Assembly (NCBI GenBank): GCA_019448385.1
Contig: JAGTXO010000003.1
Coordinates: 1 to 64,000 of the forward strand
DNA length: 64,000 nucleotides
Source: Diacronema lutheri
Taxonomy: Eukaryota > Haptophyta > Pavlovophyceae > Pavlovales > Pavlovaceae
Direction of reading: 5' to 3'
Every line of letters starts with the position of its first letter. The stretch's first letter is position 1. The translations under genes were made by a program, and so were the position numbers. Shown here one piece after another: positions 9,198-40,502 of this stretch. Below the pieces are notes generated by a model. That model was given only the letters and a program-made list of their open reading frames with translations, did no database searches and was not told where the DNA came from.

Positions 9198-9703
9198 TTG
9201 GCGGCGGTGGACGTGCGACGCTTACAGGCGGGTCAGCAGGAGGGGCGCGCACGGGGCCGAGGCTGGACAATCGGAGCGAGCGAAAGGGCGCACGCAACGT
9301 ATAGATGGTCAAGCCAAATCCGATCAGGGGCACGATCGCGCCCCGAGTGCAGCGCGGGCCGTTCGGAAGGACGTCCTTGTGAGGGAGCTCTTCGCGTTTG
9401 GCGAGCGGGGGAGCACGACGCGCAGCGTTGCTGCGGCGGCGTGCGGGCGGCGAGCAGCGGTCGGGCTGCTCGCGACGAGGCCGGAGCAGACGGCGCCGTG
9501 GCCGCCGGCGCAGGTGACGCGCGCCGACGAGCCGTAGCGAGCGTCCGTGATCCGCACGGCGGTTGGAGCGGGCCGGCTGGTGCGGCGCGCTCGGCCACGG
9601 GTGGCGGCGTGCACGGTCGTGCCGCGCGCGGCACGCGTCGCCAGCCGCGCGCGACCTGGGCAGAGCCCGCAAAGCGTCGACCGCTGCGCGGCTCGGCCGT
9701 GCG
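9198..9703. other. Region downstream of the Fanzor gene with a stable hairpin
   Basis: No supported gene is seen. A short A/T-richer stretch (9297-9326) is followed by a near-perfect 18-base inverted repeat, GGGGCACGATCGCGCCCC, at 9327-9344. This lies about 360 bases past the stop codon of the giant gene on its 3' side. In TnpB and Fanzor loci the guide RNA overlaps or follows the 3' end of the nuclease gene, so this is the natural place to look for one; that role is inference. Confidence 0.4.
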
Positions 9704-12434
9704 TCAACGCCGGCCGCGCTTCGGCCCGCGCGCGCTGCCGCCGCCGGCACTGGCGCTGGCAGCTCCGCGGGCGGGGGTGCGGGCGCGAGAGCCGCCGCCG
9801 CCACCGCCGCCGCGCCCGCCGCCGTCGTCGCCACCGCCGTCGCCGCCGCCGCCTCCCCCGCCGTCATCGTCGTCGTCGCCGCCGCCGCCTCCGTCGCCGT
9901 CGCCGTCGCCGTCGCCCTCGCCGCCGCCGCCGTCGCCGCTGCCATCGTCGTCGTCGTCGTCGTCGCCCTCGTCGTCGCCCTCGTCGTCGCCGTCGCACTC
10001 GTCGTCGCAGTCGTCGCCCTCGCCGTGCACCATGCGCTCCTCACGCTCCCACACCTCGCCGCGCGCCCACCAGGCGAGCACGAGGGCAAAGCGCTCAGGC
10101 GTCGACGTGGTGTCGCGCCCGGCCGCGTGCGCCGCCATGTCGTGCACGTCGTAGAAGATGTTGCGCGCGGCGTTGTAGTCGCGGTGCACGGGCTTCTTGC
10201 CGCCGTTGCACGCCGGGCAGATGACGAGCGCGTGCACCGTGCGCGTGCCGCCCTTTGCCACGGGCAGGCGCGGGTTCTGCGCGAGCTCCGCGCCGCAGCG
10301 CTGCAGCCTGCCGCCCTTGGCGAGCCGCGGCATCGAGCAGTGCATCGACGTGTACGGCTCGGGCACGAAGACGGCCGCGACGCCGCGCCGCCGCAGCTCG
10401 CGCAGCAGCCCCACCTGGAAGGCGGGCGGCGCGCCCTTGGGCTGCGCGCCCTTGTGGTCGCGCAGCCACTTGCCCACGCACACGAGCAGCCGGTCGCGCG
10501 TCACGCCGTCGACACAGTGCGCCGCGATGAGCGCCTCGGCGACGCGCGCCGCGTTGGACCGCCCGCCGCTGTCGCGCCGCCAGCGCTCCTTCCGGCGCGC
10601 CGGCGCGTCGTACACGTGCTCGGCGGCGCGCTCGCGCACCCGCGCGCTCTCGCGGTGGAAGGCGTGGAACTCGCCCTCGCCGAGCACCTTGGCGCTGTGC
10701 GCCTCGCCAAGCCGCGCCTCGTCCGCCTCCACGCTGAACTCCTCGCCGCGCCCGTCCTTGCGCACGCGCCGCCGCGCCGCGTTGGTCTTGGCCGTCTCGC
10801 GCGCAAAGCCCGCGGCGCGCGCGCGCGCGCGCTGCGTGAACTGCCGCCAGACGGCCGCCCGCCCGACGTGCGCAGAGTAGGTGGTGATGTTGCCCATGTT
10901 CGGGTCGGCCGCGACGACGACCGCCGCCTCGACGTCGATCGCCCGCCGCAGCTCGGAGCCGAGCGCGACGGCGATGCGCCCGTCCGGCCGGCGCCAGCGG
11001 TGCAGGACGCCCGAGCCGCCGGCCGGCGCCTGCGCCTTCGGCACGAGGACGGTCCCGACGGCGTGCACGGCGACGCCATCTGTCACCACCGACTTGACGG
11101 GCTGCCGGCCCGGGAGCGGCACGCGCGGCAGCGGCGCGAGGCCAACCCACGAGCGCCGCGCGTGCCACGGCAGATCGGCCGGCGGCCGCTCGCGCCCGGC
11201 GTAGTCGAAGACGCGGTTGGAGATGTCGAAGCGCGTCGCAAAGACCGCGTACCTGACGCGCACGTCCGACATCGGCGGGGTGTTGCCGTTTGTGCCTGTC
11301 CACTTGATCGGCTCGCCATCGTGGTCGCGCAGGTCCAGCGCCTTGAGCCGCGCGCGCAGCTCCTTGCGCTCGTCATCCGAAAGCGTCACCCAGATGGCGC
11401 TCGCGGCGAGGCGCACGTTGCGCGGCACCTGCGCGCAGCGCGCGGCGCGCGAGCGCGCGGGCGCGTGACCAACCTGGCCGCGGGGCGGCGCGCACGGCGG
11501 CGGCGCGCGCGCTTGGGCGCTCGGCGGCGGCAGCGGCAGCCACGCCTCGCGCGCACATTGTGCGTGCGCAGCGGCGCCACATTGTACCGCGGCGGCCGTC
11601 CGGTCAGCTGCGTGTGGATGTGCGCGAGCCGGCAGAGCAGCGCCTGCCCCTCGGCCACGTGCTGCAGGGTGCGGATCTGCACGAGGAAGTAGCGCGTCGT
11701 GTGCCGGTCGTAGTTCCACCTTTTCGTGGGCGTGCACTTGTAGTCGATCTTGTGGAGGACCATGTCGGGCAGGTGGCGGTCGAGCGCGGCGGGGCAGCCG
11801 ACGCGCGCGCCCTCCACGTCGCCGCGCAGCAGCCGCTCGCACAGCTCGCGCACGCGCGCGTTTCGCTGCATCTCGGGCAGCGCGACGAGCGCCTCGTCGC
11901 GCTCGACTGCCGCGCGGACGACGTCGCGGAGCAGCCCGTTCACGACGCGCGATGGATGCATCAGGCACGCGGTGGACACCTGCGTCGCCTCCGCCTCGAG
12001 GATCTCCGTGAGGCCCACCGCGCAGACGGGCTGGACGCCCTCGGCCATCTCGCCGACGGCGCGCGCCGTCGCCGCCTTGGTCTGCGCGGCGGCTTGCTCG
12101 GCGGGCTTGCCTCGGGGCGCTGCACCGTACGTGCTCTCGTCCTTGTGCCAGCCGATGGCCGAGAAGATCGCACGGACGGTTCCCTTGTCCATCGTGGTCG
12201 ACGTGTGCACGCTGGTCGACGGGCCGCCCGACGCCGCGCCGACGGCCTGCGCGCTCGCCACCGCAGCCTCGTCGCGCACCACCTTGTTGATGACGCGGTA
12301 CGCCTGTGTCGTGAGCCTGTGCACGGCCGCCGCGATGCGCCGCAGCTCCTTCCGCGCACCGGGCTGCGCCGTCACCGCCTGCGGCCCCGCGTTGAGCGTC
12401 GAGCGCTTGACCACGAAGCCCGGGAGCACGCTGA
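9704..12434 (-). other. Fanzor (TnpB-like RuvC nuclease) domain
   Basis: This is the C-terminal module of the giant protein, interrupted by the 128-base intron at 11556-11429. The helical N-terminal part begins near VSVLPGFVVKRSTLN. RuvC-I is VVAADPNMGN, with the catalytic Asp codon at 10904-10906. RuvC-II appears as VPEPYTSMHCS, a Glu directly before the TS-x2-C motif, as in the rearranged Fanzor active site. A zinc ribbon follows (MHCS... QRCG... CPAC). RuvC-III is HRDYNAARNIF, with Asp at 10178-10180. All three acidic residues are present. Fanzors are RNA-guided DNA nucleases carried by eukaryotic transposons and some giant viruses. After the core comes a Gly/Asp-rich acidic tail of about 90 residues ending GPKRGRR. 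Confidence 0.8.
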
Positions 12435-15400
12435 CGCGCGTGCGCGCCGTCGCGCCGCCGGCGGCGCGCGCGCTCGGCGCAGCGGGCTCGTCCACGCGCG
12501 CGCGCTCGACGCCGCGCGCGCGGGGAACGCTCGGCGCGCGCGCGCTCGCGGCGTCGCGCGCGCTCGCGGCGGCACCCGCCGCGGCGCGCTTGCCCGCGGC
12601 GCCCGACTCGCCGTGCGCGCGAAGCGGCGCCGACGCCAATGCCGACGCCGCGCCCGCGCCGCCGCTGCCGCTGCCCGATACGCCCGCGCGCCGCTTCTGC
12701 TCGTCGCGCGTCTTGCGGAACTGGGCGACGAGGTCGCTGCTCACGTTGGCCTCAGGCTCCCACGTGTCGGCGCTCTCGTCGTAGCCCCGCCACCTGATCC
12801 GGAACTGGAACGTCACCTTCTTGCCCGCCTTGCGGCGCTCGTCGACGACCGCCTCGACCTCGTACGTGCGCGCCTCCTCGTCGACGCTCGCGCCCGCCGC
12901 GCTCGCGCCCGTGTCCGGCCACCCAGCGACCGTGCCGCCCAGCCTCTCGGCGGCCGCGCGCAGCTGCCGCTCGCGCTGGGCGGCCGCGGCGCCTCGCGCG
13001 ACCAGCGCGGGCAGCATGCCCGCGCCGCCCGCGAGGCCGTGCGCGCCGACGCTGGCGGTCATCAGCGCGTCGAGGCACGCGAACGTTGCGAGCGCACGCG
13101 CGCCATCGTCGCCGCCGCGCGGCTGCGAGCGCACGACGGGCGATGGCCGCGGCTCCCCCTCGGCCGCGAGCAGCGGCCAGATCGCACTGGCCAGCGCGAC
13201 GGCATGCGCGCCGACCGCGACGGCCACGTCCGCGTCGAGCGGCGCAAAGTCGTAGCGCACGAGCGCGGCCGGGCGCGAGTCGTCCGTCGGCCGGTCGGCG
13301 ACGAGCAGCCCGACCTGGCGCGGCGGCTCGCCGGACGGCGCGGCGACGGGCACGCAGAGGAGCACGACGAGCAGGCGCGGCGTGCCGCCGAGCAGCGCGC
13401 GCGCGGCATCCGCCCCGTCGGCTCCGCCGCGCGCGGCCGCGGCGAGCAGCTCGGCCGCGCGCGTCGGGCCCAGCGCCGTGCGCGCGTCCTTGCGCGCGCG
13501 TGCGCGGGCCGTGTACGCGGCGCAGGCGTCGTCGAGCACCGCCGCGCTGGGCGCGGTGCCAGTCGTCGCCCACGCGCGCAGCGCGTCGCGCACCCGCGTG
13601 AGGATCGCCTGGTCGACCGCCGCCTCGCCGGCAGCGTGCGCCGGCGCGCACGCCGGCGGTGCGGCGGCAGGCGCGAGCGCGGGCGCGCCGTCGGCGCCGT
13701 CAACGCCGACGGCGCCGTCGGCGCGCCGCCACGCGAGCTTCGCCTCGATCTGCTGCCGGACGGCGTGGCAGTGCCGGTCGATGCCGCGCGCGTCGTCGAG
13801 CGCGGCCAGCGCGTCCTCAGCGGCGGGACGGCCGCTCGCGTCCGCGACGGCCTGCAGGCAGAGCAGCGCGGCCGCACGCGCGTTGCACGCGCTCTGCGGC
13901 TCGGGCGCGAGCGCGAGCTCGAGCTCGAGCGGCGACGCGCCTCGCGCCGCGGCGATCGCGTCCATCAGCACGTCCAACCGCTGCACCAGCGCCCTGTGCG
14001 CGTCGCGCGGCGCGCCCGTCGACGGCGCGCGCGAGCGCGTCGCCAGGAGCCCGAGCGCGCGCGCCGGCGCGCCCGCCGGCGTGTGCAGCACGAGCAGCGC
14101 CGCGCCCGCCAAGCTCGCGTTGCGCGTGACGAGCGCGAAGATGCGCGTCGCCTCGTGCGCGCCCACCGACGCCCAGATCGCAGCGCGATCGGCGTCCGTC
14201 TGCGCGTCGCACAGGTCGCGCACGTCGTCCGGCGCGAGCAGCGCGCCGCCGCCGGCGGAGCGCGCGACGATCGCCCGCGCCTCCGCCACGAAGACGGCCT
14301 GCGGCAGGTCGGCGTGGCGCGCGTCGACGATGGCGCGCGTCGCGTGCACGCCGAGCTCCACGCCGCGGTAGAAGGCGCGCGCGTTGGCCGCGCGCGCGTG
14401 CGCCGGCCGTCCGTCCGCGTTGCGCCTCGCGCGCGCCTGCTTGCTCGTGCGCGCGAGGCCGTCGCGTGGCGGTGGCGGCAGCGTGGCGAGGAAGCGCGCG
14501 GCGGGCGGCGGCGCGCGCACGCCGCGCTGCCGCCGTGCGATGGCCGCGAGCCGCCGGCCCGCCGCGCTGCCGCCCGCGCCGACGTGCTGCCGGCGGCCGA
14601 GCGCCGCCGGTGGCGGCGGCGGCGGCGGCGCGGCGGCGGGCGGCGGCGCGACGGCGGGCGGCGGCGCGGCGGCGGGCGGCGGCGCGGCGGTGGGCGGCGG
14701 CGCGGCGGCGGGCGGCGGCGCGGCGGCGGGCGGCAGCGGCGGCGGCGCGGCGGCGACGGCAGCACCAGTCGGCTTGTCCGCCCACGCACCCGAGACTCTG
14801 TCCCAGACCTTGCCCCATGGCGCGCGCCCACGCGGCCGCGCGAACTGCCCCGGCTCGAGCGCCTGGCCGCGCTTGGCGGCGGCGGCGGCGGCAGGGGGCG
14901 GGCGGCCGGCGCGCCAGTCGAAGACAGGTGCAACCGTGGCGGCAGGCGCCGAGTGCCGCGCGTCGGTCACAGAGCGCGTGGTGCGCGCGGCGACCGTGGC
15001 ACGCCTGGCAGGCGGGCGGTGAGCAGCGCCCGCCGGCGCGCCGGCGGGCGCGGCCGCCTCGAGCCCGGCGGAGGCGCCGCGCTTGCGCTTGCGCGTGCCG
15101 CCGCGCGTGCGCCTGCGCGCGCGCCCGCCGCGCGCCCGTTCGGCCTGCGCGTCGCCAGCCGCGTCGCCGGCCGCGTCGCCGCGCCGCACGTAGACGACCG
15201 CGAACGCCTCCTCGCCGGTCCCGTCGACGCCGCCGCGCGCGCGGCGCAGGACCGACCGCCACTGCAGCCGCCGCGCGCGGCCGGGCTCGCACGCAAACCA
15301 GCGCCCACCGCGCCTGACGACGGCCACAAAGTCGTCGTCGCGCCGCCCGCGCCGGCGCGTGCGCAGCAGCACGCACTGCACGTCGAGCCAGCCCTCGTGC

Positions 15401-18400
15401 CAGTCGGCCGTGCTGGGGGCGACGCGAATCGACTGCGGGAGCTCGACGCCAAAGCCGGCGAGGCGCACGATGTGCGCGACGATGACGCTCGAAATGGCGG
15501 GGGCGCTCGACGGGTCGCCCGCTGCAGCGAGCACCGCCCCGCCCCAGTGCTCACGCGTGACGCAATCCGCGTCCTCGACGTGCACGTGCGCCACGCTCGC
15601 GCCGAGCTGGTGCAGCAACGCGCAGATGTCGGCGTCGACCGTCCTCTCCTCCTCGGCCGCCTCGGCCGTGCCGCGGGCGGCGGCGTCGCCTGCCGGCTGC
15701 CCGAGGTACGCGATCGCCCGCTCGACGGCCGCGCGCTCCGCACGCGCTGCGCTGTCGATCGCCGCATTGCCGACGGGCGCGCGCAGCGCCGCGATCGCGT
15801 CTTGCAACGCCGTCGCGTCGCCCGTCGCCGCCGCCGCCGTCACCGCCGCCGCGCTCGCGGTGCCGTGCGCGACGGCGTGCAGCGCGGCGGCGCGCGCGGC
15901 GGGGATGCGCCCGTCCAGCGCGAGCACGAGCGGCGGCCCGGCCGGCGTCTGCTGCCGCCGGTGCCGCCGGCTCGCAGCCGGGTGGTCGGCGCGCGCGCGC
16001 TCGAGCCGCGCGCGCCGCTCGACGACGCGCGCCCAGAAGGCCTGCACCCTCGGCTGCGCGAATGCAAGCCAGCCGGCGCCGCGCGTCACGACGTGCACGA
16101 CGATCCGGTCCTCGTGCCTGAGGTACTGCACGTAGAGCGCTTTGCTCACGCCGAGGACGTGCATGCCGAGCTGCAGCTGATCGCGGTGCGGCTGCGGCGG
16201 CCCGTCCTCGTGCGCCGTGGCGCCCGCCTTGGTGAGCGTCTTCACCTCGACGAGGACCTGCTCGTTGTTTTCGGGGAGGATGGCGAGCCCGTCCGGCGAG
16301 AAGGCGAACGGCGCGCTCTTGTCGTGCGGGTCCGCACGCACCATCGGCAGGTTGCACACGACGGTGATGCCGTACGCGGCCGCCAGCTTGCGCAGCGCGA
16401 CGGCCTCGCCGAGGATGCCCGCGGTCGTCGCCTTGGTCCGCACCTCGCGCCGCCGCCGGTGCACGTACTCGTCGGTGAGCGTCTCGTGCGCGACGCCGGC
16501 GTTGTCGTTCACGACGTCGCCAACCTTGCTGCCCGTGACCTCCTCCCATCGCTCGTCGTGCCAGCGCGGGCTGCGCTGCGCGGGCGCGCCCGCGCCGACG
16601 GCGTCGAGCACGCGGCGCAGCGCTGTGCCGTCGGGCGCAGCAGGCACGCGCGCGCGGTCCTGGGCCTCGCGAGCGTCGAGGACGCGGCCCGTAGTGGAAT
16701 CTTGGGGTAGGTCGAGCTTGCTCGCCTCGCCGTAGCGGCTCTCCAGCTGGCGCGGTGCGTCGGCAGGGCCGCCGTCCGTGCGCGCACCCGACGCGCCCGC
16801 CAGTGCACGCGGCGCAGCGTCCGAGGCGCCCGCCGCGCCCGCGCCGCCGCCAATCGCGCCAGCGCACGCGCGCGCCGCGACCTGCGGACGGCCAGCCGCA
16901 GGGACCTCGTCCGCTCGGCCGGCCGCTGCGTCGGCCGTCCGCTTGGCCACCTCGCGCACGTCTCCGAGCGCGAGCGTGGCTGGCGCCGTCCAGCTCCCGT
17001 TGCGTTTGTCCCAACATTTGAGCAGCCCGCCAAGGAAGGGCGTGCCCGTCGGGCGGTCCTCGGGCACCTCCGCCAGGATCGCGTCGACGCGCAGCGCGGC
17101 CGCCACATCGCAGAACGCGCGCGCGGCGCGCGCCATCCGCTCGGCGCGCGCGCCGCCGTCGTCCGCCGCGCGGCGGATGGCGTGGCTCACGTGCGCGACG
17201 CGGAGCGAGACGACGGCGTGCGCCGGCGCGTCGGCGCCCGTGCCGAGCGTGTGCCGCCGGATGGCCAGCTGCCCATCGCCCATGCGCGGCGGCAGCGACG
17301 CGCACGCCGCGACGGTCGTCGTGCCGGCCGCGCTGTCGCACAGCCAGCTCGCCTCGCCGCCGCCCGCAAACTCAAAGGTCGCGAAGCCCTCGCGGCCGAA
17401 AAGCGCGACGAAGTGGTCGAGCACCGCCTTGTTGATCGCGCGCGCCGCCGGCCGCGTCGATGCGCCGCGGGCAGCGCCACCCGCCGCGCCGCGCGCATCG
17501 CTGCACGTCGCAGGGCAGGTGCAGCCGGACGCGCGCACGCCGTCCGACCGCGTCCGCGGCAGCTCGAGCTCGCGCACCTTGGGGCAGAACCAGAGCGGGT
17601 TGGACGCCTCGAGGCACAGCACGACGAGCCGCCCGTCCGTGCCGGCCAGCGCGCGCGCGTCGCGCAGCAGCTCGACGGCGAGCTCGGACGTCGCCGCGTG
17701 CACCGCCGGCTCGCCCGTCGCGCGGTCGGGCGGGAAGAGGCCGCCGCCGACGAGCGGGCTGGGGCAGCGGCCGAGCATCACGAGCAGCGGCGGCGGCGGC
17801 GTCTGCGGCGCCTGCTGCCCGACCGCAGCCGCCGTCAGCCCGGCCAGGTCGGAGCTCGTGCGGAGGGCCTTGAGCGCGACGCGCGAGCCGGTGCCCGCCT
17901 GCTCGGAAAACGTGGCGAGCATGGCGCACGTGCTCGCCCTCGCGCCGCACTGCCAGCTGACGCGCGCGAGGAGGCCTTCCAGCGTGTCGTTTTCCGCGCG
18001 GCCGCGTGACCGCGTCGAGCGCCGCCGGGCCGAGCTGGAGGCTGCCGGGCGTGACGCACAGCACCGCCTCGTGGTAGGCGCGCAGCAGCTCCCTCGGCAG
18101 CTGCTCGGCGGGCGTCGCCGCCTGCCCGCCCACCCACCGTGCACCGTGGCCGCCGTCGCCCGCGCCCGCGAGCCGGACCGCCGGCCCGCCCGTGATCGCC
18201 GAGGTCGGTGGCGTGCCGAGCGCGTCGACGAGCGCGCGCACGGGCGCGACACGCCTGCGCGCAGCGTCCGCGCCGACGGCGAGCGCGGCGATCTGAGCGC
18301 CGTCCCATGCGCGCTCCCTCGCGTCGTCCCGCGCGGCCGCCGGCGCGGCGCCCGGCCGCGCGCCGGGCGGCACCGCGCACGCCGCCGCGACGACCTCCGC

Positions 18401-20278
18401 GCGCGCGCCGGCGGCGTCGGGCGCGTGCAGCTGCGCGAGCGCGCCAAAGAGCGCGGCGGCCGAGCGGTAGCGGCCGTGCGCCGCGACGAGCGCGTAGAGC
18501 ACGCGCAGCGCGGCCACGCCCGCCTGGTCGGGCGCGTCGTCAGCGATTTGCTCGACCTCCCACGTGCGCGTGGGCGGCGGGCTGCCGTCGGCCGGGTCCG
18601 GACGCAGCGCCCACGCGCGCTCGACGATCGCGTTGAACACGCCGTGCGCGGCGCCCTCGTCAAACTCGGCGGCGCCCGCCGCGTGCGCGCACCACCCGTG
18701 CACGCGCGACGTGGGCGCGTCCACGGCGCGCTGCACGACGAGCACCGCCGGCCGGTCGACGCAGCCGAGGCTCACCGCCGCGTGCTTGCCCTCGAGCAGC
18801 GCCGCCGCCGCAGCCTCGACCAAGGCGTCATCAGGCGCGTCGCCGACGACGACGGCACAGCCGTCGCCGTACTCGGCCTGCATCGCGGCGACGCACGACG
18901 CGACAAAGTCGCCGCCCGCGGCCGCCGCGTGTCGCGCCGCCAGCATCCGGCGCGCGATGGCAAGCCAGACGTACTCGGCCGGCGCGCGCGCGGCGCGCGC
19001 GCGAGGCGCGCCGGCCGCGCCGCGTGCGCCCGCGCGTGCGCCTCCAGCGGCCGCAACGGCCGAGGCGGCTGGAGCGGCGGTGAGCGTGCGCCGCGCGCGC
19101 TTCGCCGGCCGCGTGATGGGCGATGCACCCGCCATCGCACCGCCCGCAGCAGCCGGTGCGGCCGCCACAGCGCCCGCCGCAACGCCACTCGTCACGACGC
19201 CCGTGGCGGGCGGCGCGGCGGCGGACGTGGCCGCCTCGACGGGCGTCGCGCAACTACCGCCAGCGGTCGCGGACGCGCCCGGCGACGCGTCGGCGAGGAG
19301 GTGGCGCAGCACGCCGCGCGCGAGCGCGACTCGCACGGCGAGCGTCAGCGCGCGCAGGCGGTCGGAAGGCGAGGCGTCGCGCTCGGCGTCGGCGGACGTG
19401 GCGGCAGCAGGCGGGGCGGCGGGCGGCACGGCGGCGGGCTGGGCGGCCGCCGGCGCAACCTCGTCGGCCTTGGCCAGCCAGACGAGCCCGGCGACTGCGA
19501 GCACGACGCTGTACGCGCCGACATCGTCACCCGCAACGCGCGCCAGCCGGGCGTGGGCGTCGGCCTCGGACACGGCGACGTGGAAGAGCACGTCGTCGCG
19601 GGCAGCTTGCTCGGCAAACTGACGCAGCTGCTTGGCCATCGTCACGCCGGCGACGCACGCCTCGCCCGCCTCTGCCTCGACCTGCTCGTCCTGGCCGATG
19701 GCGGACGCGCCGGCCTCGGCGCCAGCGTCGAGTGTCCGGCGGCGCTCGAGGGCGAAGCCACGCACACAGACGCGCTGGAGGCCGCCGAGCGCGCCCGCCT
19801 TCTCGTGCAGCGCGCACGACAGCTCGACCACCGAGTCCACGCGCCTCGCGGCGGCGCCCCCCCGCTCGCCGCGCGTGGCCGCGCGCACGACGAACACCGT
19901 GAATTGCGCGCGCTTCGCCGCGCGCGCCGACGCGCACGCGTGCTTCAGGAGCCGGCAAAGCGCGGGCCTTTGCGCCGCTGCGCCCCGCGTGCACAGCAGC
20001 AGTTGGCCGCGCTCGTCGCCCAGCTCCTGCTCGACGGCGGCCTCGAGCGCGTCGTCCGTCAAATCGCCGTGCTCCGTCGAGGCGAGCGCGCGCGCAGCCG
20101 CGAGCGCCAGCTCGCCTGCGCCCGCGCGCCGCCGGCGGCGCGCACCGGCGGGCGCGTGCGGCGCCGACGCGTGTGACGACGCCGCCGCGTCCGCGCGCGC
20201 ACACGCGGCGCGCAACGCCTCACGCGCCGAGGCGGCCGCGCGCGCCCTGGGCGCGAGCTTCAAGAACGTGCGCGCGGC

Positions 20279-20354
<76 letters not shown>

Positions 20355-23300
20355 TCGCCCGCGTCGCCGGCCGGCGGCGGCGGTGGCGGCGGTGGCGGCG
20401 CGGCCACGGCGGCGGCAGCAGCGGCGGCGGCGGCGGTGGCGGCGGCGGCGGCGCCCAGCGCGGGCGGCGGCGGCGTGGCGGCGGCGGTGGCGGCGGCGGT
20501 GACGCCAGCGGCGGCCTTGGCGCCGCGCGTCTGCGGCGGCGTTTCGGCGCCATCGGGGCTGCCCCCGCCGCGCACCGCGCTCGTGACCGCGCAGACGCCG
20601 CCCGGCGCACGATCGCTGGCCGCGCCGGTCAGCGCGACGCGGAGGCGCTCGCCGACAGCGTACATGTCCGCCACGCTGAACGTGCGCGGCGCGGACGAGC
20701 AGCCCGCCGCGGCGAGCGCGTCGTTGAGCGCGCCCACTATCGCGAGGCCGCACGTCGCGCCACGCTGCGCCGCCTCGTTGAGCAGCAGCGCGCGGCGCAC
20801 GCGCGAAATGTCGAGACCCGCCGCGTGCAGCGTGGCAGTTATCGCCTTGGCGAGCATGAGCGCCTGCCTGCAGGGCGACGCGAGCGTGTCGACGAGCACC
20901 GCGTCGTAGCGATGCTCGCCCGCGCGCGCGACGCGCACAAGGCGCAACGCGGTGAAATGGCCGGAGGCGAGCTGCGCGCCGTCGTCACCGCCCGCGCCGC
21001 CGCGCTCGTCCGACGGGCTCCACACGCCGATGACAGCCTGCGTTGTCGCCTCGCTGCGCAGGCGGTGCAGCAGCGCGGCGCGGTCGGCGTCGTCCTGAAA
21101 CACCGCGGGTTGCGCGGCGAGCGGCACGTGGCAGACATGCCCGCCGCCGGCCTGCCCGTGCACGCGCAGCACGACCTCGCAGCACGCGTCGACGGTTGAG
21201 GCGAGCATGTCGCCGCTGGCGATGCGCTCCACCTCTGCCTGCGGGAGGCCGGCGCTCGCGGCGGCGGCGGCCAGCCGGCGCGCAGCCGCGTCGCCCGCCC
21301 ACGCAAGCAGCGCCGAGTTGGCGGGTTGGAGGGGAAGCTCAAGGGCGGCTGGTTCGGTGGCGGTAGCCTCGTTGGCAACGGGCACGTTGGCGGTGCGCGC
21401 GTTGGCGGCGGGCGCGGCGGCGATGGCTGGTGGGGCGGAAGACGCGCCCGCGGCGGCGGGCGCGGACGCGGCAGCGGCAGCGGCTAGTGGGGCGGGGAAA
21501 ACGCCGTCGGTGGCAGGCGCGGAGGCGAATGCAGGAGCAACTAGTGGGGCGGGAAAATCGGCGGCAGGCGCGAAGGCGGATGCAGCAGCGGCTAGTGCGG
21601 CGGGGAAAACACCGTCGGCGGCAGGCGCGAAGGCGGATGCAGGAGCGCCCAGCGGGGCGCAGAAAACACCGTCGGCGGCAGGCGCGAAGGCGACAGCAGC
21701 AGCGGCCAGTGGAGCGGAGGCGCAGGGCCACGCGCGCGCCAGCCGTGCAAGCCCAAGCCGCGCGCGAGCGACGCACGCGCCGATGGCCGAGGCGGCGGCG
21801 CAGGCCACGACGTGGCCTGGCACCGGTGTGGCCAGCCGCTCGCGGGTGTGCACGTCGAGCCGCGCCCCACGCCAAGAGCGGCGGCGCGCTGAACGGAGGC
21901 GCGCGACCCCGATCGATCCGCCCGCGCACGCGCGCGCCGGCTCAGTGTGGCCAACGCGCGCCGCTATGCAAGGCGCGCGCGCGATAACGGCGGCTGTCGG
22001 CCGTGGCGTGCGCGTGGCGGCGCCGCGGCGACGGGCGCGGCACACGAGCCGCTCGGGCGCGCCGCCGCCGCGCGGCACGATGTCGAGCAGCACGGTCACG
22101 CCGCGCGCGCGCGCGACCGCCGTGCACGCGAGCCGCACGGGCAGCGGCGGCCCGTCCGGGCGCGCGAGCGCCGCCACCTCGGCGTCGGTGAGGCTGTGCA
22201 GCTCGCGGCGCGCGCGCGCGAACGCGGCGATGTCCGCGCGCAGCTCCGCGTCCGTGCCGAGCGCGGCACGCGCGTGCACGGGGAGCGACGCGCGCAGCGC
22301 GTGGAGCACGCCGCCGCGCGCGCCGCGCGGCGCCGGCGCGCGCTCGCGCTCAGCGCGCGCGGCGCGCGTGAGCTCGCGCACCGCGCGCGCGAGATTGCGC
22401 CGCGCGGCCGCGACGGGAGGGCTAGGTGCGCGCGCGCGCCGGTTGTAGCGCGGCCGCGCCGAGTCGAGGGGCGGCGGACGCGGTGCGTACGCCGCGGCGC
22501 GGCCCGCGCGCCAAAAGGCCGGCGGCGGGCGCAGCTCCGTCGCGTCGACCGCGGCCGCGAGCGCGCCGAGCGCGGCGTCGCTGTCGCCCGCCGCGTCGGC
22601 CGCGTCGACGAGCACGAAGAGCGCGCCGAGCGCGCGCGACGCGGCCGCCTGCGCGGCGGTGGGGCGGGCGCAGGCAGCGACGCATGCGGCCGCCATGCCG
22701 CGCGCCGCGGCGAACGCCGGTGACGTGACGGCCGCGCCGATGGCAACGGCGGCGGCGGCGACGGTGGAGGCGGCAGCGCCGGCGATGGAGGTGGCAGCGG
22801 CGGCGGCGCTTGCCATCGCGCGGCGCGCGAGACGCGAGGCGCCACCGACCGCCGCCGCCGCAGCGCGCGCTGCGCGCGCGCCGGTGGCGCGCATCGTCGC
22901 CGCGCCAGGCGCCGCCGCGCCGACGCCGCCGGCGCCCGCGCCGTCGCCGCTCTCGGCCGTGCAGGGCTCCGATGGCGAACCCGGCGTGCGCTGGCGCGTG
23001 ATGCGCGCGCCGAGGCGCGCGCTCCGCGCCGCGCGGCCGGCGACGTCGAGGAAGCGCCGTGCGCGCGCCGCGCGCAGGCCACGCGCGCGCGGCGGCGCAC
23101 CGACAGGCGCCGAGCGCCGCGGCGCGCACGCCGGCGCGTCGCTGTCGGGTTGCGCAGCGCGCGCGCGGGAACTCGGCGCGGCGTGTGCGGGCGGCGGGCG
23201 CGCGCCCGCGCGGCGCAGAGGCGCGAGGCGCCGGCCGCAGACGAGGCGTGTGCGCAACCAGGACGGCGAGGGCCGCAGGGCGCCGTCGACGTCGCGCATC

Positions 23301-26300
23301 GGCGGGCCGCGAGCCCGCCGCGCAGCCGTGCGGCGCGCGCGAGGCGCTCGGCGGCGCGCGCGCCGCACGGCGCGCGCGGCGGCGCGCACGCCAGCGACGG
23401 CTGCGGCCACGCCGCGCGCCAACACGGCCGCGGCGTGCGCCATCGCACCGAGCACGGCGCGTGGCGCGCCGAGCAAGCGCAGCAAGCGCGACGCCGTCGC
23501 GCGCGCCGGCGCACCGTGTGCAGGGGCCTCGCCAGCGCCAGCACCGACGCCGCCATCGCCGCAGCCGCAGGTGGCGTCGCCGCCGCCGCAGGCGTCGCGA
23601 CGGACGCCGCCGCCGCCGAAACAACCGCCGCACACGTCGCCGCCGACGTTGCCACCCCAGCCGCCGTTGCGTGCGCAGGTGGCTGCGGCGCGTGCGTGCG
23701 GGAGGCGTGCCGTGCGGCGCGCATCACACGGGCTGCGCGACGCGAGCGACGCCGCCGGGGTCCCCGCTGCGCCAGGCGCGCCGTGCGCGCCAGCCTCGCC
23801 GGCCTCGCCGGCGCGCGGTCGCGCGCTCGCCTCGACGTGGCCGCCTCCGCCGCCATCGCCGCCGTCGAACCGGGCGGCGGAGGGCTGCCGCTCGAACCGC
23901 TCGTCGGCGTCGGCCGCCACCGCCGCCTCGCGCTCCGCCGCCGCGGCGGCCGCACGGCGCGCGTGGCGGAGCGCGCGGCCGCCGTCCGCTGCGCGGCGTG
24001 GCGGCGCGGGCGCGGGCTTCGGCGCGCGCGGCCCCTCGGCGCGCTCGCGGAGCACGGCGAGCGGCGTGCCCGTGGCGACGCTCGTGCAGACGCGCCGCAA
24101 GGCGGCGCTTACGCACGCGTGGACGACGCGCGCCGTCCGCTTGTCGGCGGCGCGCGCGGCGCGGCGCGCGGCCTTGGCGGCGGCCTTTTTGGCGCGCCTC
24201 TGCTCCGCCTGCTCCGACAGCGCGCGCGCCTGGCGCTCGGCTGCGAGCGCGTCCTCGGGCGAAACGGTCGGCCTCGGCGGCCGCGCGCGCGCGCTGCGAC
24301 GCTGCGCGCTGCGGCGGTCGGACGGCGGCTGCCGCGGCGGCGAGGACGGCGAGCGCGAGCTCGGCGTGGGCGACCAATCGCCGCTGACGGTTGCGAGCGG
24401 CGCAAACGGGTTGTCGTCCCCGCGACCCGCGGCGTGCGACAGTGCACGCGGCGTCGGGCGCCGGCCGACCGCTGGCGGGCCCCACTCGGACGGCGGCTCC
24501 GAGGGCGAGCGCGCCGTCGGCGCCGCGCGTTGCGCGGCCGGCGGCGCCTCCCGGTCCAGCGCCGCCTGCTCTCTCGCCGCGGCCTGCTCGTCACCCTCCG
24601 GCACGCCACGCGGCGCGAGCACCGCGGTGGCGCAGCGCGTCGCGTTGAGCAACGCCGCCTCCATCTGCCGCACGCTGGCCTTGGCGCACGCCACACCCTG
24701 TCTCGCCCGGCGCAGCGCCTCGTGCGCGCGGCGCACTTCCGCGTCGGCATCTTCGCGCATGCCAAAGTGCGCCTGTTGCAGCCGCAGGTCCGCAGGGCGC
24801 CCCTGCGCGCGAGGGGCACGGGCGCGGCGGCGCGCAGGTGACGGAGCTGGCGCGCCGTTCTGCGCTGCGCGCACGCCAATCGACGGGCGCGCGCGCGGCG
24901 GGGCGCGCGCGCGCGCGCGCGCGCGCGCGCTGCCTACCCAGCCGCCGGCCGGCTCGCGCGAGCGCGCCAGCTGCTCCGCCGCCTCGGCGTCGAGCACGCG
25001 CTGCTGCGCCTCCTCCTCGCCCAGTGCAGCGAGGTGCAGCCGGCGGGCTGCCTTGCGGCAGTTGCCCTCCGCCTTGCCCACGGCCTTGCGCGCCGCGTCG
25101 ACGGGGTCGTCGTTGGCTCTGGCGCGCCTGCGCTTGCCCTTGTCGGCGGGCGGCGGCTTGGCGCGCTGCAGCGTGCCGAGCGCGTCGTCGGCTCCGCGCG
25201 CGGCCGCCCGCGGGCGGCGGGCCCCAAAAAGCGCACCGGTCGCCGTGCGCGCCGCGCAAGCAACGACCAGCGCTGACATGCCGGCGAAGACCGCACCGCC
25301 CAGCGCCACGGTTGCCACGATGCGCAGCGTCCCGTGCGCAAGCTGCGCTGCCTCCGCCGCTTTGGCGGCCTCGCGCGCGCGCGCATCGGCGGCTCTCATC
25401 TCGTGCAGCAGCCCGGCCGCGCCGCTCGCGCCGTCGCGGCCGCGCGCGAGCTCGCACAGCACCGCCGCCGCGCGCCGCGTGGGCTCGCGCGCGAGCAGCT
25501 GCGCGCCGCCGTCGGGGCGCAGCTTCTCAACGAACTCGACAAACGTCGCGTCGCGCCAGAGGGACATGCGGAAGGCCCTGTGCACCGCCCCCTCCTGCTC
25601 GCGCATCCGCCGTGCCGCCCGCCTGCCGTCGCGCGCGTGCGCGTGCGCGGCCGCGTCGAATCCCGCGACGCCGCGCTGCGCGTCGCGCGCGGCCGACGAC
25701 GGCGCCGCCGCGCTGCCCGCCAAGGGCGCCGCAGCGGCGACGCGCGCGTGCGGAGCGACGGGATCGCCGGCGGCCGGCGGCTCGGCGCGCTGCGGCGTGC
25801 CGTTTGCTCCGCGCGCGGCCGTCCCGGGGGAGATGGCCGCGATGGCGCCGCCAGCCGCGCCGCGCGCCAGCCACGCGCATAGGCTGCCGACGAGCTCGCC
25901 GAGACCCCCGACGGTCGCCGCGGCGGCGAGTGCGCCGGGCTTGCCGGCCGACAGCGGCTCGCGAGCGTCGTCGTCGCAGCCGCCGGCACCCGTCTTGGCG
26001 AGTGCGTCGCGCTCGCCCTCGACGCCCGCCACGACCGCCGCCCCTCCGTCGTCCGCCGCGCCGGCCGCGCGCGCGGCCGGGCGCAGAGGAGGCGTGCCGG
26101 TGCAGCCGTCGCCGCTCGTCTTCGCCGTTTCCTCCACTTTGGTCACTTCGTCGCCACCTGCGCCATCTCCGACGCCGGGGCCCTTGGTCACGCTTGCCGC
26201 CATGCGCGCCGTGCCCGCCGGCCAGCCCGCCGACTGCTCGAGCGCGGCGGCGAGCGGCGCGACGCGCGTCGACTCGGGCGCGCTCTCGTCATCGGGCTCG

Positions 26301-28612
26301 AGCGCGTTGTGCAGGCGCGCGAGCGCGCGCTCGACGGCCGCGGCGCCACTGCCGGGGGCGCGGCTCGCCGCGCGCACCGCGCGCCGCCAGGCCGGCGCGA
26401 ACATGAGCGCCGGCTCGAGCGCCGCGAGCGCGCGCGCCTCGCGCGCGTCGCTCGCGCCGAGGCGCGACGGCACGCGCGCGGCTCCGCGCGGCGCGGTGCC
26501 TCGGAAGCGTGGGCTCAGCGTGTAGGCGAGGTGCTGCGGCACGCCGCGCGCCTCCGCGCGCGCGCGTCCGTCCTCGACCTCGCGCCGCGCCTTCGCGATC
26601 GCCGGCGTGGCGCGCGCGAGCCAGTCGGGGTCGGCGGGCAGGTGGATCACGACGAGAATCGGCGCCCAGTCCAGCCGCGGGTTCTTGTGACGGTCGGGCA
26701 CGACCCACACGAGCAGCACCGTGCCCTCCGCGCCGCACGCCGCCTCGTAGATCCTGGGCTGCGAGCGCCAATCGGGCCTGACGCGCAGCGCCCGCGCGTG
26801 GTCGATGGCGGCGGCGCGGTCGCCATTGAAGTGAACCGTCGTCACCTCGCCGATGACGGACCGGCCGGACCGCCAGCAGAACACCGCGTCCGCCGACCCG
26901 CCGGCGATGGCCGCGAGCGATTCGGGCGCGGCGAGCCGCGGCAAGCCCTCGAAGGCGGCAAAGTCCTCGTGCGCATTGTACACGCCGCCCCAGCCGTCGT
27001 GCGCGTACGCGCGCGCGGCCGCTCGTACCGCGCGCGGCTGGTTCTCCACGCCCGACGTCATGTGCCATGTCGTCCCCGCGAAGCCGGGCTCGCCCAGCTC
27101 GGCCCGCACGACGGCACCGTACCCCGCGCCCTGCGTCGGGGCGGCGAGGTGGTGCATGCCCGCGCCGGTCACGCCCTCCGTGCGCTGCCGCGTGACGATC
27201 GTGCCCGTCGCGTGCGCGAAAAGCGTGTCGACCACGGCGGGCGCGCGCCCGCTGTTCGCCCGTAGCCGCGCCCTGCCCGCTTTTAGCTGCTCGGGGTCCT
27301 TGGCGTCGTACACGCGCGCGTCCGCGTCGCCCTCATCAGGCGCAGTGTAGACGCAGCGGCGTTCGAGCGGCGCCGAGCCACCGCCGTCCGCCGCCGCCGG
27401 CGAGGTTGGCGCCGCGCCCGCCGCCACCGCGCTCGTCGCCGCCGTGCCCGTCGCCACCGCCGCAGCCGCCGCGCCCGCGGGGTCGTCGTCCCCGTCCTCC
27501 GCGCCCTCCCCGTCGTCAGCGGTGGTGGCGTCGCCATCGTCCCCGTCGCCCTCGCCCCCGCCGAGGCTGCTGAATGGTCGGGGCCCCCACGCCGAGGCGG
27601 CGCGCCGCTGCGGCGCACGCGGCGGTGGCGCTCGCGACGGCGGCCTTGGCGCCGCCGCGCCGCGCGGCCTGGCCGCCGTCGACAGCGCGCGGCCTGCAGC
27701 GCCCGTGAGCGCGTCGAGCGCGGCCGTGCGTGCGATGCGGTCGTCGGGCGCGCGCAGCGCCGCCTCGACGGCCTGCAGCAGCCCGTCGGGCGCGGATCCG
27801 CCGACACTGGCATCGCACGCCTCGGCGAGCCGCGCGGCCTCGGCGAGCCGCGCGGCCTCGCGGGTGAACGGACCGAAGCGCCTGGCGCGGTCGCCGAGCA
27901 GAGCGCCGATGGCGGCGCGGAGCGTGCGCGCGCGGGTCTCCTCGTACGCGGCCGTCGTGAGGCGCGCGAGGCGCGCGTCCAAAGCCTTCTTGATGTCGAC
28001 AAGGACACTCGCGCGGCGGCCGTAGAGCGTCGATGCGCTCGCCACGACCTCGGCCGCGACTGTTGCCGCGGCGAAGCAACACGCGGCCCCACTCTGCGGG
28101 GGCGCCTTGAAGGCATCGATGGGCGGCGCTGTTCTGCCGATGCGCTGCGCAAGCTTCTTGATGAGCACGCCGGCCGCCGTGGCGTACGCCGATTCGCCGT
28201 TGCCCAAGGTGCGCGAATCGGCGAGCAGGGCGAGCGCGGCGCCGGGCGGCGCGCCGCGCTGCGCGGGCGGCGCGAGGAGCAGGTACGCCGCCGTCCAGTG
28301 CACGAGGCCGCTGGACGCGCGGAGGCAGAGCGGTAGCACGACCACGAGCACCTGCCCAAACCGGTCCGCATCCGCGCATGCTTTGCGCAGGTTGCGCAGC
28401 GCCACCTTGAGCGCATGCTGCGAGCACCCCGTGTCGCCCACCCTAACCCTGCTCGTGCCGAAATCCGCGTAACGCAGCAGGGCGATGAGGCAAGTGGATG
28501 GGACGACGTGGGGGTGGGTATCTCCCGGCGACAGAATGGTGCTGAGGGCCAGCGAGAAACTGTCCGAGCCGCCCCGCCCGCCGGGCAAAGCGTCCTTCAC
28601 GGAGTCCTCCAT
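9704..28612 (-). CDS. Giant Ulp1-YqaJ-chromodomain-Fanzor fusion protein (3 exons)
   Basis: The model is exons 28612-18011, 17898-11557 and 11428-9704, encoding about 6,220 residues. Both introns are GT-AG and phase 0 (112 and 128 bases); the second (GTGCGC donor, CTGCGCGCAG acceptor) is well supported, while the exact acceptor of the first could be another CAG nearby. In order: a C48/Ulp1-like protease (residues 1-200), a PD-(D/E)XK-like segment (about 500-700), one hydrophobic helix (about 1,100), coiled-coil and Arg/Ala/Pro-rich spacers, a second Ulp1-like protease (about 2,430-2,630), degenerate related modules, a YqaJ-like nuclease, a chromodomain, and a C-terminal Fanzor nuclease with an acidic tail. 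The combination suggests cleavage of SUMO- or ubiquitin-like modifiers plus DNA binding and cutting on chromatin, perhaps as a self-processing polyprotein. The start ATG is the first codon before the protease. Whether one protein is really made is unproven; long open frames are cheap at this GC. Confidence 0.6.
12712..12873 (-). other. Chromodomain upstream of the Fanzor module
   Basis: The segment reads TYEVEAVVDERRKAGKK, then FQFRIRWRGYDESADTWEP, then EANVSSDLVAQFRKTRDEQ. The Y-x-VE start, the aromatic cage positions (Tyr, Trp, and the Tyr of RGY), and WEPEANV followed by a helix are diagnostic. Chromodomains read methylated histone tails and target retroelement integrases to chromatin. It lies in the same exon and frame as the Fanzor N-terminus, about 90 residues before it. 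Confidence 0.85.
13020..15640 (-). other. Degenerate protease-like modules and proline-rich spacer
   Basis: Three stretches (about 15640-15180, 14400-13800 and 13640-13020) share a weak pattern: a buried strand (DDDFVAVVRRGGRWFACE, ALLVLHTPAGAPARALGLLA, LVVLLCVPVAAPSG), a later acidic strand, and an alanine-rich helix preceded by Gln (PQSACNARAAALLCL, SQPRGGDDGARALATF). This resembles C48 peptidase folds without the His or Cys. Between them (14755-14600) is an Ala-Pro repeat. I infer decayed or structural copies of the upstream protease modules; profile comparison is needed. Confidence 0.3.
15980..16575 (-). other. YqaJ-like PD-(D/E)XK nuclease domain
   Basis: The module starts RWHDERWEEVTGSKVGDVV, the helix that begins YqaJ/lambda-exonuclease folds. 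GILGEAVALRKLA supplies the upstream Glu. The core reads SPDGLAILPENNEQVLVEVKT, with Asp and the E-x-K pair, followed by a Gln-rich helix HRDQLQLGMHVLGVSKALYV. The catalytic set Glu, Asp, Glu-Val-Lys and Gln is complete. YqaJ-type enzymes are exonuclease/recombinases found in phages, large DNA viruses and some eukaryotic mobile elements. Confidence 0.7.
18410..20170 (-). other. Two further degenerate C48-like modules
   Basis: One module (about 20170-19650) contains DLTDDALEAAVEQELGDERG and a paired-strand region FTVFVVRAATRG... SVVELS. The other (about 18990-18410) contains FVASCVAAMQAEYGDG, strands PAVLVVQRAVDAP and VHGWCAHAAG, and a final DDAPDQAGVAALRVLYAL. That last motif mimics the Q-x-D-x2-D-C-G box of Ulp1 proteases with the Cys replaced. 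They look like catalytically dead relatives of the active modules. Confidence 0.3.
20274..20355 (-). repeat. GCC/GGC triplet repeat (poly-Ala)
   Basis: About 27 consecutive GGC/GCG triplets encode a polyalanine run of about 26 residues in the giant protein, between the second Ulp1-like module and the following spacer. Low-complexity triplet expansions on both sides suggest slippage. Confidence 0.85.
20715..21310 (-). other. Second Ulp1/C48-like protease module, active site intact
   Basis: The module contains ASGDMLASTVDACCEVVLR, then CHVPLAAQPAVF, then SGHFTALRLVRV with the catalytic His, YDAVLVDTLASP with Asp, and NEAAQRGATCGLAIVGALN with Gln and the nucleophile Cys in a CG pair. Order and spacing (about 18 residues from His to Asp, about 40 to Cys) match SUMO/ubiquitin-like proteases of clan CE. 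Confidence 0.55.
26500..27120 (-). other. Possible inactive PD-(D/E)XK segment
   Basis: The sequence GSADAVFCWRSG-RSVIGEVTTVHFN recalls the strand-turn-strand core D-(x)n-E-x-K of restriction-like nucleases, with Thr where Lys should be. A helix and buried strands follow (TVLLVWVVPDRHKNP, ILVVIHLPADPDW). If correct, this is a second, dead nuclease in the same protein. The evidence is only a motif. Confidence 0.25.
28010..28612 (-). other. First Ulp1/C48-like protease module
   Basis: The N-terminal 200 residues of the giant protein contain VLPLCLRASSGLVHWTAAYLL (His-Trp pair), ALLADSRTLG (Asp) and PPQSGAACCFAAATVAAE (Gln and Cys). This is the His-Asp-Gln-Cys set of clan CE cysteine proteases such as Ulp1 and adenain. 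The usual CG is CC here. The start ATG at 28612 has the context GCAGATGG. Confidence 0.5.
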
Positions 28613-30521
28613 CTGCAGACTGTGGGCACGTCAGTGTCCGGATGGCGGCCCGGATGATACTTGGGAGAATTTACATGATGCCCTAGAGAATGCCCCGCTC
28701 TCCCACAACCAGGACCCGCCAGCGCGCCGAGCCTACTCGTTTGCCCGCGCCGCCTCTCTTTGCGCGCCCGAGCGCGGCCTCCGAGCGCGGCCAACGTCCT
28801 CCGGGGGCGTGCATCGTGGCTGCTCGGAGGGGCTGCGACGCGGCGAAAGCTCGCTGCGCGGCCGCAACGTGAGCGCGCGCGCGCGGCCGCGCGCCGGCCT
28901 GCGCTGCTCTGCACGGCCGCGCGCCGGCCTGCGCAGCCTCGTCGCGCAGCGTGAGCGCGAGCGCGCGCGAGGTGAGCTCGGCGGATGGGTGCGCGGCGGC
29001 GTTGGCGGCGGGTGCGGCGGCAGGCTGGGCGGCGGGTTTGGACGGAGAGTGTCGGGGAAGAACGGGGCGCATCCTGGCTGGGAGTTGGACGGCGCCCACC
29101 ACGCGCTGGCGGATCCTGGTTGCCACCACCACCCCCCCCCCCCCCCCCCCCCCGGAGACGAGGACCAGGGGCATGGCCGACTCGCTGCGCCGCACAGCGC
29201 GCGGCGCGCGGCATGCTGCGCGACCTCAAGCACATCCAGCCGCGCTCCGCCCACGCAACGCGCGCAATGCCGCGTTGCACTGCAGGTGTGCACGTGCGGC
29301 TCTCACGCGCACTGTGTTGCACGAACGGCATCACGCCACCGAGCTGCGTCCGGACCACGCGCCGCGCGCAGGCGACCACACAGGGGCGCGCCGCGCCGCG
29401 CGTGCGCGCCCTCGCAACCGTTGCAGCACGCTCTGCCTTGCACTGCGCCGAGCCGCCGCGCGCTGTGCGCGTGCATGCAGGGCGCACGCGTGCGACGAAG
29501 CGCGCGCGCGGCGAGGCGCGCGGGCGGCTCGCTGCGCGGGCGGCAACGCGCCCAGCTGCGCCCAGGCCAGGCGCGCGCCCGCGAGTGCCACCGGGACGCA
29601 CTGCCCCCGCCGGGGTCGCCGCGCGCTCTGTGTGTGCGCTCGCGCGCTGCGAGCGCGGCGGAACGTTCGTGCATGGCGCGAAGAGCGCGGCACCCGAAGA
29701 CGGCTGCCCCGAGCCCGCGCCGGGTGGCAGCGAGCGGCGGCACCTCCTCGGCGAGCCCGCCCCGCGCCTTCCCCTCCACGTGGCGTTTTGAGGCAGACGG
29801 ACACGCGCCCACACTGCGACTGGGCACGCTGCTCGAGGCAGACACGCACCCAACGCGCGCGCACCACGCGCCCGCGTCGGCGGGCCGGTGTGAACGAGCG
29901 AGAGCTCGGTGTCGCCAACGGGGGCACGGGCGCGACTTCGGTCCGCCTCTCGACGGACGCAGGCGACGCTGCCGGGAACTTCCCCGACGCCTGCACATCC
30001 AGGGCTTCGAGGTACAGAGCTGGGCAACAGTGCCGCTCGTCACCGATGAGGCGGCCAAGCTCGCTATCCTTGCTGCCCTCGGCTCCACCAAACAGCCGGG
30101 CGACCCAACGGTTCGTGATCGCCTGGCCGCCAGGTGCGAACCGCGCCCGTGCAAGCGCTTCACCCGCATTCTCCGCCCCGCTGCGGACGTCCGCCTGCCG
30201 GCCGCGAACACGGCCGGTGCGCGTTGCCGCCTGGCCCAACACGAAAACCCGCCCGCCCCCGAGGCCGCAGGTCCTACCTGCCCAAGCGCAGCCCAACGGC
30301 ACGCAGACAGCCCGCCTTGGCAACCGACTCGTGCGCGAGCGCTCCGCCCTCCACAAGAGCCTGCCCCACGCCACCGCCGACGCGGAGCCAGCGCAGCCGA
30401 CGCCCCTCCGCGACGCTCGCGCCGCAAGGCGCAAGGGCCCCGGCGAGACGGCGTCAACCAAGCCCGCCGCTGGCACAGCGCCGGCACCCGGAGCCCACCC
30501 CAAGCCCCCGCGCACGCCTCG

Positions 30522-30557
<36 letters not shown>

Positions 30558-30589
30558 ATCGGCGGACCGATTGCGTTTTGGTGCGCCAG
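28613..30589. other. Unresolved region with a poly-C tract
   Basis: No domain is recognised on either strand. A run of 22 cytosines stands at 29132-29153 and another of 35 at 30522-30556. In this genome these mark 3' ends of plus-strand introns, so upstream exons of the small membrane-protein gene that ends at 31030 probably lie here. A plausible coding piece is near 29990-30170 (GFEVQSWATVPLVTDEAAK). I could not define exon borders. Confidence 0.3.
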
Positions 30590-31030
30590 GCTCAATGCGC
30601 CATCGCAGTGGCGGGCCCGCAGACGCAGACGCTGACATGCCCAACGCTGGGCACTGAGGCCGCAGGCCGGCCCTCCTGGACCTGGCGGGCGAGCTGCCCG
30701 CGCAGCGGCCACGCGAGCCTCGCACTGACCGTGGCGGTCGCTGCCACCGTGATAGCTGCGGGTGCGGCGGCCTTGGCCCCAACCCCATCATCCGTCTTCA
30801 TGCCCGCCCTGCTCGCGCTCGCGGCCTACGTCGGCAATCCCTGCACCGGGATCCGCCCCGCGAAGTCCACACAAGACTTATCCGTGCTGCACGCCAGCCG
30901 CGCGCGCCGACGCGCGCCGCTCCCACACGCTCACCTCCGTTTCCGCGGGCGGCCCAACGCCCCCCCCCCCCCCCCCCCCCCCCCCTCCCCCCCCCCCCCC
31001 CCCCGGCAGGCGGCCATCGAGCCGCATTAG
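30590..31030 (+). CDS. Last exons of a small membrane protein with poly-C introns
   Basis: Exon 30590-30829 and final exon 31010-31030 are joined by a GT-AG phase-0 intron. Its acceptor follows a 26-C run, one T, and 18 more C (30960-31004, then GGCAG). The upstream acceptor (GTGCGCCAG ending 30589) follows a 35-C run and is also phase 0. The exons encode a hydrophobic region (LALTVAVAATVIAAGAAALA... FMPALLALAAYV), probably two membrane helices, and end AAIEPH. Upstream exons are not resolved. The agreement of two phase-0 junctions with poly-C tracts is the main support. Confidence 0.4.
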   Translation, partial: AQCAIAVAGPQTQTLTCPTLGTEAAGRPSWTWRASCPRSGHASLALTVAVAATVIAAGAAALAPTPSSVFMPALLALAAYVGNPCTGIRPAKSTQDLSVLHASRARRRAPLPHAHLRFRGRPNAPPPPPPPPSPPPPPRQAAIEPH

Positions 31031-31559: not shown

Positions 31560-31601
<42 letters not shown>

Positions 31602-40500: not shown

Positions 40501-40502
40501 GC

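Follow-up and report, generated by a model that had tools for sequence, protein, structure and literature searches.

We find that a 64,000-nucleotide stretch of the genome of the haptophyte Diacronema lutheri (hereafter the window) contains a 31,070-bp repeated element that is probably a giant Helitron-like DNA transposon, encoding a PIF1-family helicase, a ubiquitin-specific protease and a predicted giant protein that joins a chromodomain to a Fanzor-type nuclease. A preliminary description had read the last of these as one gene, without the transposon around it, and had offered a selfish element as one interpretation. That interpretation is supported: the sequence is no single host gene but cargo of a high-copy 31-kb transposon that also holds the helicase and protease genes. 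Cargo of this kind can pass for a host gene in a genome scan. The parts of the element outside the giant gene are as follows.

9299–40368, no strand assigned: giant Helitron-like transposable element, with sharp ends common to the copies read and differing flanks
40305–40322, minus strand: 18-nt perfect palindrome near the 5' end (sequence and fold)
37499–38370, no strand assigned: nested inverted repeat of ~870 bp, also matched in copies C3, C78 and C89
34560–37002, minus strand: PIF1-family helicase, frame broken in several places (PF05970, E 3.7e-14 and 1e-24 in two frames)
32006–33499, minus strand: ubiquitin-specific protease (USP/UCH) frame (PF00443, 36.5 bits against a cut-off of 23.9, E 5.3e-9)
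9327–9344, minus strand: 18-nt near-palindrome near the 3' end (sequence)
9299–9703, minus strand: 405-nt 3' tail from the Fanzor stop to the element end, by analogy the place expected for a guide (omega) RNA

A repeated element with fixed ends

Copies of the element share precise boundaries. Similarity stops at window 9295–9299 in all 10 Fanzor-exon copies compared, three further copies break off at 40368–40370 at the opposite end, and copy C89 aligns with the element from end to end at 99.65% identity. Insertion flanks, where read, are unrelated between copies. The genome contains at least 76 copies of the Fanzor exon, 103 of the helicase exon (first helicase frame) and 150 of the N-terminal part, 92–100% identical, together with at least 67 scored copies of the core exon. 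Scoring covered only some of the candidates, which makes all four figures minimum values. Within an assembly of 103 contigs and 43,492,796 bases, 76 to 150 copies would make up 5–11% if all were full length, an upper-type figure because there are fragments among the copies. The genome paper for strain NIVA-4/92 gives 103 contigs, 43.503 Mb and 73.25% GC, and its main text contains no occurrence of 'transpos' or 'helitron' (PMC8379373); a print description of the element was not found in the open-licence literature. Across 30 hand-paired copies the span from Fanzor to helicase is long in 18, short in 10 and different again in 2. As seen in C3 and C78, the short form carries ~2 kb of other sequence in place of window 26204–33958, which holds the first protease motif set and the USP gene.

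Insertion is precise. A target duplication is absent from all 23 copies with both ends read (one more copy was read at a single end). Directly at the ends, none of the 23 has two or more bases in common and four have one; with offsets of 0–2 bases allowed per end, a match of 5 bases is present in two copies and one of 3 bases in a single copy, figures for which no null was computed. Among five-prime flanks, 15 of 22 have C at −1, and among three-prime flanks 14 of 29 have G at +1, with the C|G combination present in 9 of 23 copies. Each end has an 18-nt palindrome or near-palindrome nearby, though the 3' one takes no part in the computed DNA fold of the terminal 80 nt. Neither an asymmetric terminal inverted repeat longer than 6 nt nor the TC/CTRR termini of Helitron1 were found at the element ends. 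We also considered and rejected a telomere-specific element: four contigs begin near an element end, but in one case the contig start lies 47 bases beyond that end and in another it falls far within the element, as assembly breaks would give.

Other repeats lie in and around the element. The arms of the nested inverted repeat, 207 and 174 nt long, are 97 and 95% complementary and include TGTAGGG-type runs. The terminus of another repeat family occupies window 40370–42069 and beyond, with 42 matches that include the window's own and one 45-nt piece, the others being at 92–95%; by eye, the 5' end of the giant element adjoins sequence like the end of this neighbour in 6 of 23 copies. Also outside the element are a tyrosine recombinase match (PF00589, 39.5 bits, window 48529–49011, plus strand; 16 such places in the genome) and a long GC-rich repeat of CCGCCG-type units at window 51870–53700.

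The giant gene and its domains

The predicted gene consists of the following parts, all on the minus strand.

24938–28612: either a gene of its own or the N-terminal part of the giant gene, with motif-only protease 1 and an unknown domain (at least 150 copies)
28079–28300: candidate Ulp1-like H-D-Q-C motif set, protease 1 (motif residues, kept in copy C46)
24860–24937: candidate 78-nt GT-AG phase-0 intron with a variable (GC)n tract (length polymorphism; codon score −0.09)
11557–24859: core exon with motif-only protease 2, YqaJ, chromodomain and the N-terminal part of Fanzor (frame and codon analysis)
20750–20959: candidate Ulp1-like H-D-Q-C motif set, protease 2 (motif residues in the sequence)
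16153–16563: candidate YqaJ-type nuclease domain (PF09588, 20.4 bits against a cut-off of 22)
12712–12864: chromodomain (PF00385, 52 bits, E 6.9e-14)
11429–11556: GT-AG intron of 128 nt, supported by a frame change, non-coding-like sequence identical in 10 of 10 copies and the starts of relatives
9704–11428: last exon, with Fanzor RuvC, zinc ribbon and acidic/Gly tail (PF07282, 27.3 bits; at least 76 copies; relatives P0001–P0004)

The three long frames of the preliminary description are confirmed on the minus strand; they show strong codon periodicity, and the frame changes at about 18.0 and 11.5 kb. Scored in 500-bp bins, third-position GC is mostly 0.85–0.98, following frame A over 28.5–18.0 kb, frame B over 18.0–11.5 kb and frame C over 11.5–10.0 kb. 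Weaker bins occur at 19.0 kb (0.84), 21.5 kb (0.72), 23.5 kb (0.84) and 9.5 kb (0.82), and another frame class scores higher in the last three. At 3752 aa, the longest frame surpasses every frame that dinucleotide shuffling produced in 200 runs on the gene region (maximum 1524) and 200 on the element (maximum 1293). Alanine makes up 13–30% of the protein by segment, and motif claims in its repetitive parts therefore call for care. A short repeat array within the gene, at window 21468–21717, is apparently expanded in copy C11.

The preliminary description had connected the three frames through two phase-0 introns, only one of which holds. The 11556–11429 interval scores −0.36 per codon in frame B and −0.05 and 0.06 in the remaining two frames, against an exon reference of 146 windows with a median of 0.70 and a 5% point of 0.00. 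It is the acceptor residue of this interval at which three of the four predicted relatives start, the fourth starting four residues later, and a predicted intron here is thereby supported. The proposed intron at 18010–17899 was rejected: the stretch is coding-like (the C89 counterpart scores +0.56 per codon) and 62 of 67 copies have a frame of more than 3000 aa running through it; in one of these 62 the match contains a stop. Within this stretch the window copy differs from C89 and C11 by one nucleotide in length, with a change of frame, and intact copies exist.

A third junction, at 24.9 kb, bears on whether the whole is one uninterrupted gene, as had been claimed. A (GC)n tract of varying length lies there, and the frame of the protease-1 region continues past it in 9 of 150 scored copies; copies with one open frame all the way from 28.6 to 18 kb are thus in the minority. 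The tract is perhaps an overlooked intron, although nine other GT-AG pairs listed besides 24937/24860 also fit the frame. Given this junction evidence, there is good support for the core (protease-2 motif, YqaJ, chromodomain and Fanzor, encoded by one frame and, past one intron, the last exon) as a single predicted gene. That the first 1,225 codons belong to it, joined across the (GC)n tract only, is plausible. Two or three separate genes are quite possible, if short of probable: an N-terminal protease gene (24.9–28.6 kb), a gene for the core and, under a promoter of its own, a chromodomain-Fanzor gene. The closure of the first frame past 24.9 kb in 141 of 150 copies suits such an arrangement, as do the predicted relatives P0002 and P0003, which begin with methionine at the Fanzor exon. 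Predicted-protein starts are mechanical, however, the frame from YqaJ through the chromodomain to the Fanzor N-terminus is continuous in the 62 read-through copies, and the candidate 78-nt intron would join the first two parts. The question concerns gene structure, and either answer is compatible with a giant transposon.

At the C-terminal end, the last exon exceeds the cut-off for the Cas12f1-like_TNB profile (PF07282, cut-off 26.3) and has the Fanzor/TnpB signature of RuvC D, E and D acids with a TS-x-x-C4 zinc ribbon-RD motif, as the preliminary description had proposed. A search that scored about 8,000 candidates found four relatives of this exon; one is 99% identical, and the other three have 39–45% local identity (43–51% in alignment). 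RuvC D175 aligns in the three distant relatives P0002, P0003 and P0004; E357, the zinc ribbon and RD (RDY) align in P0002 and P0003, and the end of P0004 is cut or diverged. Among the four, P0001 alone passes the TNB cut-off. A PDB profile search returned no Fanzor, with Cas12f1 at E 0.13 below two unrelated matches, and the AlphaFold model of the exon (pLDDT 45) was too poor for a fold search. The profile and the relatives together support a predicted Fanzor end. Guide RNAs of TnpB and Fanzor systems arise from the 3' end region of the element. By analogy of position, a guide RNA may come from the 405-nt tail, which folds only slightly better than shuffles (z-score −1.13, not significant) and has no Rfam match.

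The chromodomain seen earlier is confirmed at the sequence level by a match spanning profile positions 1–52 of 53. Upstream, the YqaJ region falls just below its cut-off in the window and reaches 28.2 bits in copy C71; its E/D/ExK/Q set, already reported as complete, is so by eye, and the region is a candidate nuclease. A long-protein search with this region found nothing.

The two His-Asp-Gln-Cys sets that had been taken for SUMO/ubiquitin-type proteases are present as motifs, but neither segment matched a peptidase profile at E≤10 in a search whose HMMER filters may drop weak matches; the protease-1 segment gave DUF7525 at 0.73 and nothing else. Two SUMO-type proteases are accordingly motif-only candidates. 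In copy C46 (L088) the protease-1 region is 75% identical (152/203 aa), with H105, D132, Q173 and C178 kept in an open frame with the same start. There, L088 7373–8000 differs from window 28003–28612 at 73 of 608 bases (12%); other L088 stretches differ at 45/2834 and 23/1235 bases and the helicase pieces at 16/279, 20/479 and 2/391. Outside the protease-1 region, L088 differs by about 0.5–6%. The protease-1 divergence possibly reflects exchange or fast change. It falls on codon positions 1/2/3 as 28/29/16, with N 59 and S 14 (expected N/S ~2.5), counts from which we do not claim selection. For protease 2, relative P0005 keeps H and D and ends before Q and C, relative P0006 diverges ahead of H, and the structure model (pLDDT 46) was too poor for a fold search. 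Pairwise profile comparison of ten segments gave no support for further protease repeats within the protein.

No purifying selection was seen among recent copies, in which N/S is near the neutral 2.5. Comparison of the USP gene with L089 gives N 94 and S 31. Such figures suggest no constraint in recent copies, as expected for transposon copies after insertion.

Mobilisation and competing explanations

The USP match is well above its cut-off, while the PIF1 helicase motifs are spread over three frames and no intron room was found at the frame changes; some of them (e.g. THGQL) we take to be Helitron-like. Neither Rep (PF14214) nor another known transposase was found in the frames tested, which comprised the three gene frames and, within 28–40.5 kb, 20 of the 24 frames that are 250 aa or longer. 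We write 'Helitron-like' and not Helitron because Rep was not found and the helicase frame is broken: the term denotes likeness and not membership, since the element resembles Helitron2 in several respects without a detected Rep. The single Helitron Rep match of the genome at E≤0.1 (Helitron_like_N, 86 bits) lies at C63:35738–36019 (L039) and is a possible source in trans. A sister repeat at C4:442001–449000 (L089) has helicase and USP at 90–95%, and the giant gene is absent from the 7 kb that were read; its USP is a 439-aa frame, found in about 30 such places in the genome.

On the reading we favour, a giant Helitron-like transposon was probably moved in trans. Because its own helicase frame is broken and Rep was not found, Rep would be supplied in trans for rolling-circle-type copying. 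The best reading of the chromodomain-Fanzor protein is that it would aid the element's spread. Fanzor may load a guide RNA from the element 3' end plus flanking DNA and cut the empty site on the sister copy, so that retention or spread is favoured, a 'cut-and-copy' scheme with a parallel in the available portion of a Fanzor study (PMC10432273). The chromodomain could anchor the protein to marked chromatin, YqaJ could trim DNA ends, and USP with the possible Ulp1-like domains could strip host ubiquitin or SUMO marks. A bolder version, which we consider improbable, adds to a Rep-less, rolling-circle-like giant transposon a spliced (GC)n intron and a polyprotein of more than 6,000 residues that cuts itself through SUMO-type proteases of its own and frees a chromodomain-guided Fanzor. 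If true, it would mean RNA-guided, chromatin-targeted propagation; the proteases and the processing of the self-cleaving polyprotein proposed earlier are predicted from motifs.

The element might instead be a non-autonomous giant of another class (e.g. KDZ, EnSpm or Sola) that acquired PIF1, USP and Fanzor and is moved by an unrelated transposase in trans. The KDZ, EnSpm and Sola superfamilies make target duplications. The uniform absence of such duplications in the 23 copies, and the palindromes near both ends, make this unlikely, though it retains a real chance: the element has no Rep that we found, its helicase is broken, and the Ectocarpus giants of these superfamilies, in the available text, can reach sizes above 30 kb, contain nested insertions and have transposases that are often pseudogenes (PMC12477816). 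A fragment of an endogenous large virus is very improbable given the fixed ends, the high copy number and the absence of capsid, packaging and polymerase profiles among the frames tested; nor were close viral-contig relatives found for the Fanzor, helicase or YqaJ queries. YqaJ and PIF1 do occur in large DNA viruses as well. So does Fanzor, according to the accessible part of one survey (PMC3627910). Large intact frames and a chromodomain would also befit a domesticated host gene or an antiviral defence locus acting on chromatin, but for a sequence with at least 76–150 dispersed copies, fixed ends and unrelated flanks where read, we give this the slightest chance of all, and no observation pointed towards defence.

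The giant Helitron-like transposon places a Fanzor, apparently fused to a chromatin reader, inside a very large and recently multiplied element of a culturable alga. Arguments about the role of Fanzors in their transposons still draw on TnpB; if expressed, the protein would allow that role to be tested in a native host, and also whether histone marks steer RNA-guided cutting.

Comparison with known systems

In the portions of the literature available to us, Fanzors are associated with HUH transposons (PMC10432273), and Fanzor1 occurs in Helitron2 elements with two hairpins (PMC3627910). Giant elements are known from Ectocarpus, where KDZ, EnSpm and Sola-1 members range from >10 kb to >30 kb, reach high copy number and carry extra genes; they belong to superfamilies different from that of the D. 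lutheri element, and the word Fanzor has no occurrence in the main text of that paper (PMC12477816). Closer parallels are the Chlamydomonas Helitron2 elements CRe-1, 2 and 3, which, in the sections available, likewise combine a Fanzor-type protein with a palindrome or hairpin near both ends and lack target duplications in full-length insertions (PMC3627910). They are non-autonomous, and the D. lutheri element was probably moved in trans; CRe elements insert after TTTT-like sites and have asymmetric terminal inverted repeats, whereas ours shows a C|G tendency and no such repeat longer than 6 nt (PMC3627910). Also unlike CRe elements, the D. lutheri element extends over 31 kb, has PIF1 and USP genes and joins its Fanzor to a chromodomain in a giant predicted protein.

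Helitron and Helentron RepHel proteins carry a PIF1-family helicase, as the D. lutheri element does. Judging from the available part of one account, precise insertion is also common to both, the palindromes near the ends of the D. lutheri element may correspond to the hairpin there, and a known accessory there is an OTU cysteine protease, in place of which the D. lutheri element has USP and possible Ulp1-like domains (PMC6431247). Unlike RepHel, the element has no detected Rep domain and its helicase frame is broken.

Reported Fanzors are, to our knowledge, stand-alone proteins. SpuFz1 and other Fanzors, as presented in the accessible text, have the RuvC D/E/D acids and zinc ribbon at the C-terminus, as does the D. 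lutheri protein (PMC10432273). Unlike them, the D. lutheri protein is predicted to carry a chromodomain and a YqaJ-type domain N-terminal to these, in the same frame.
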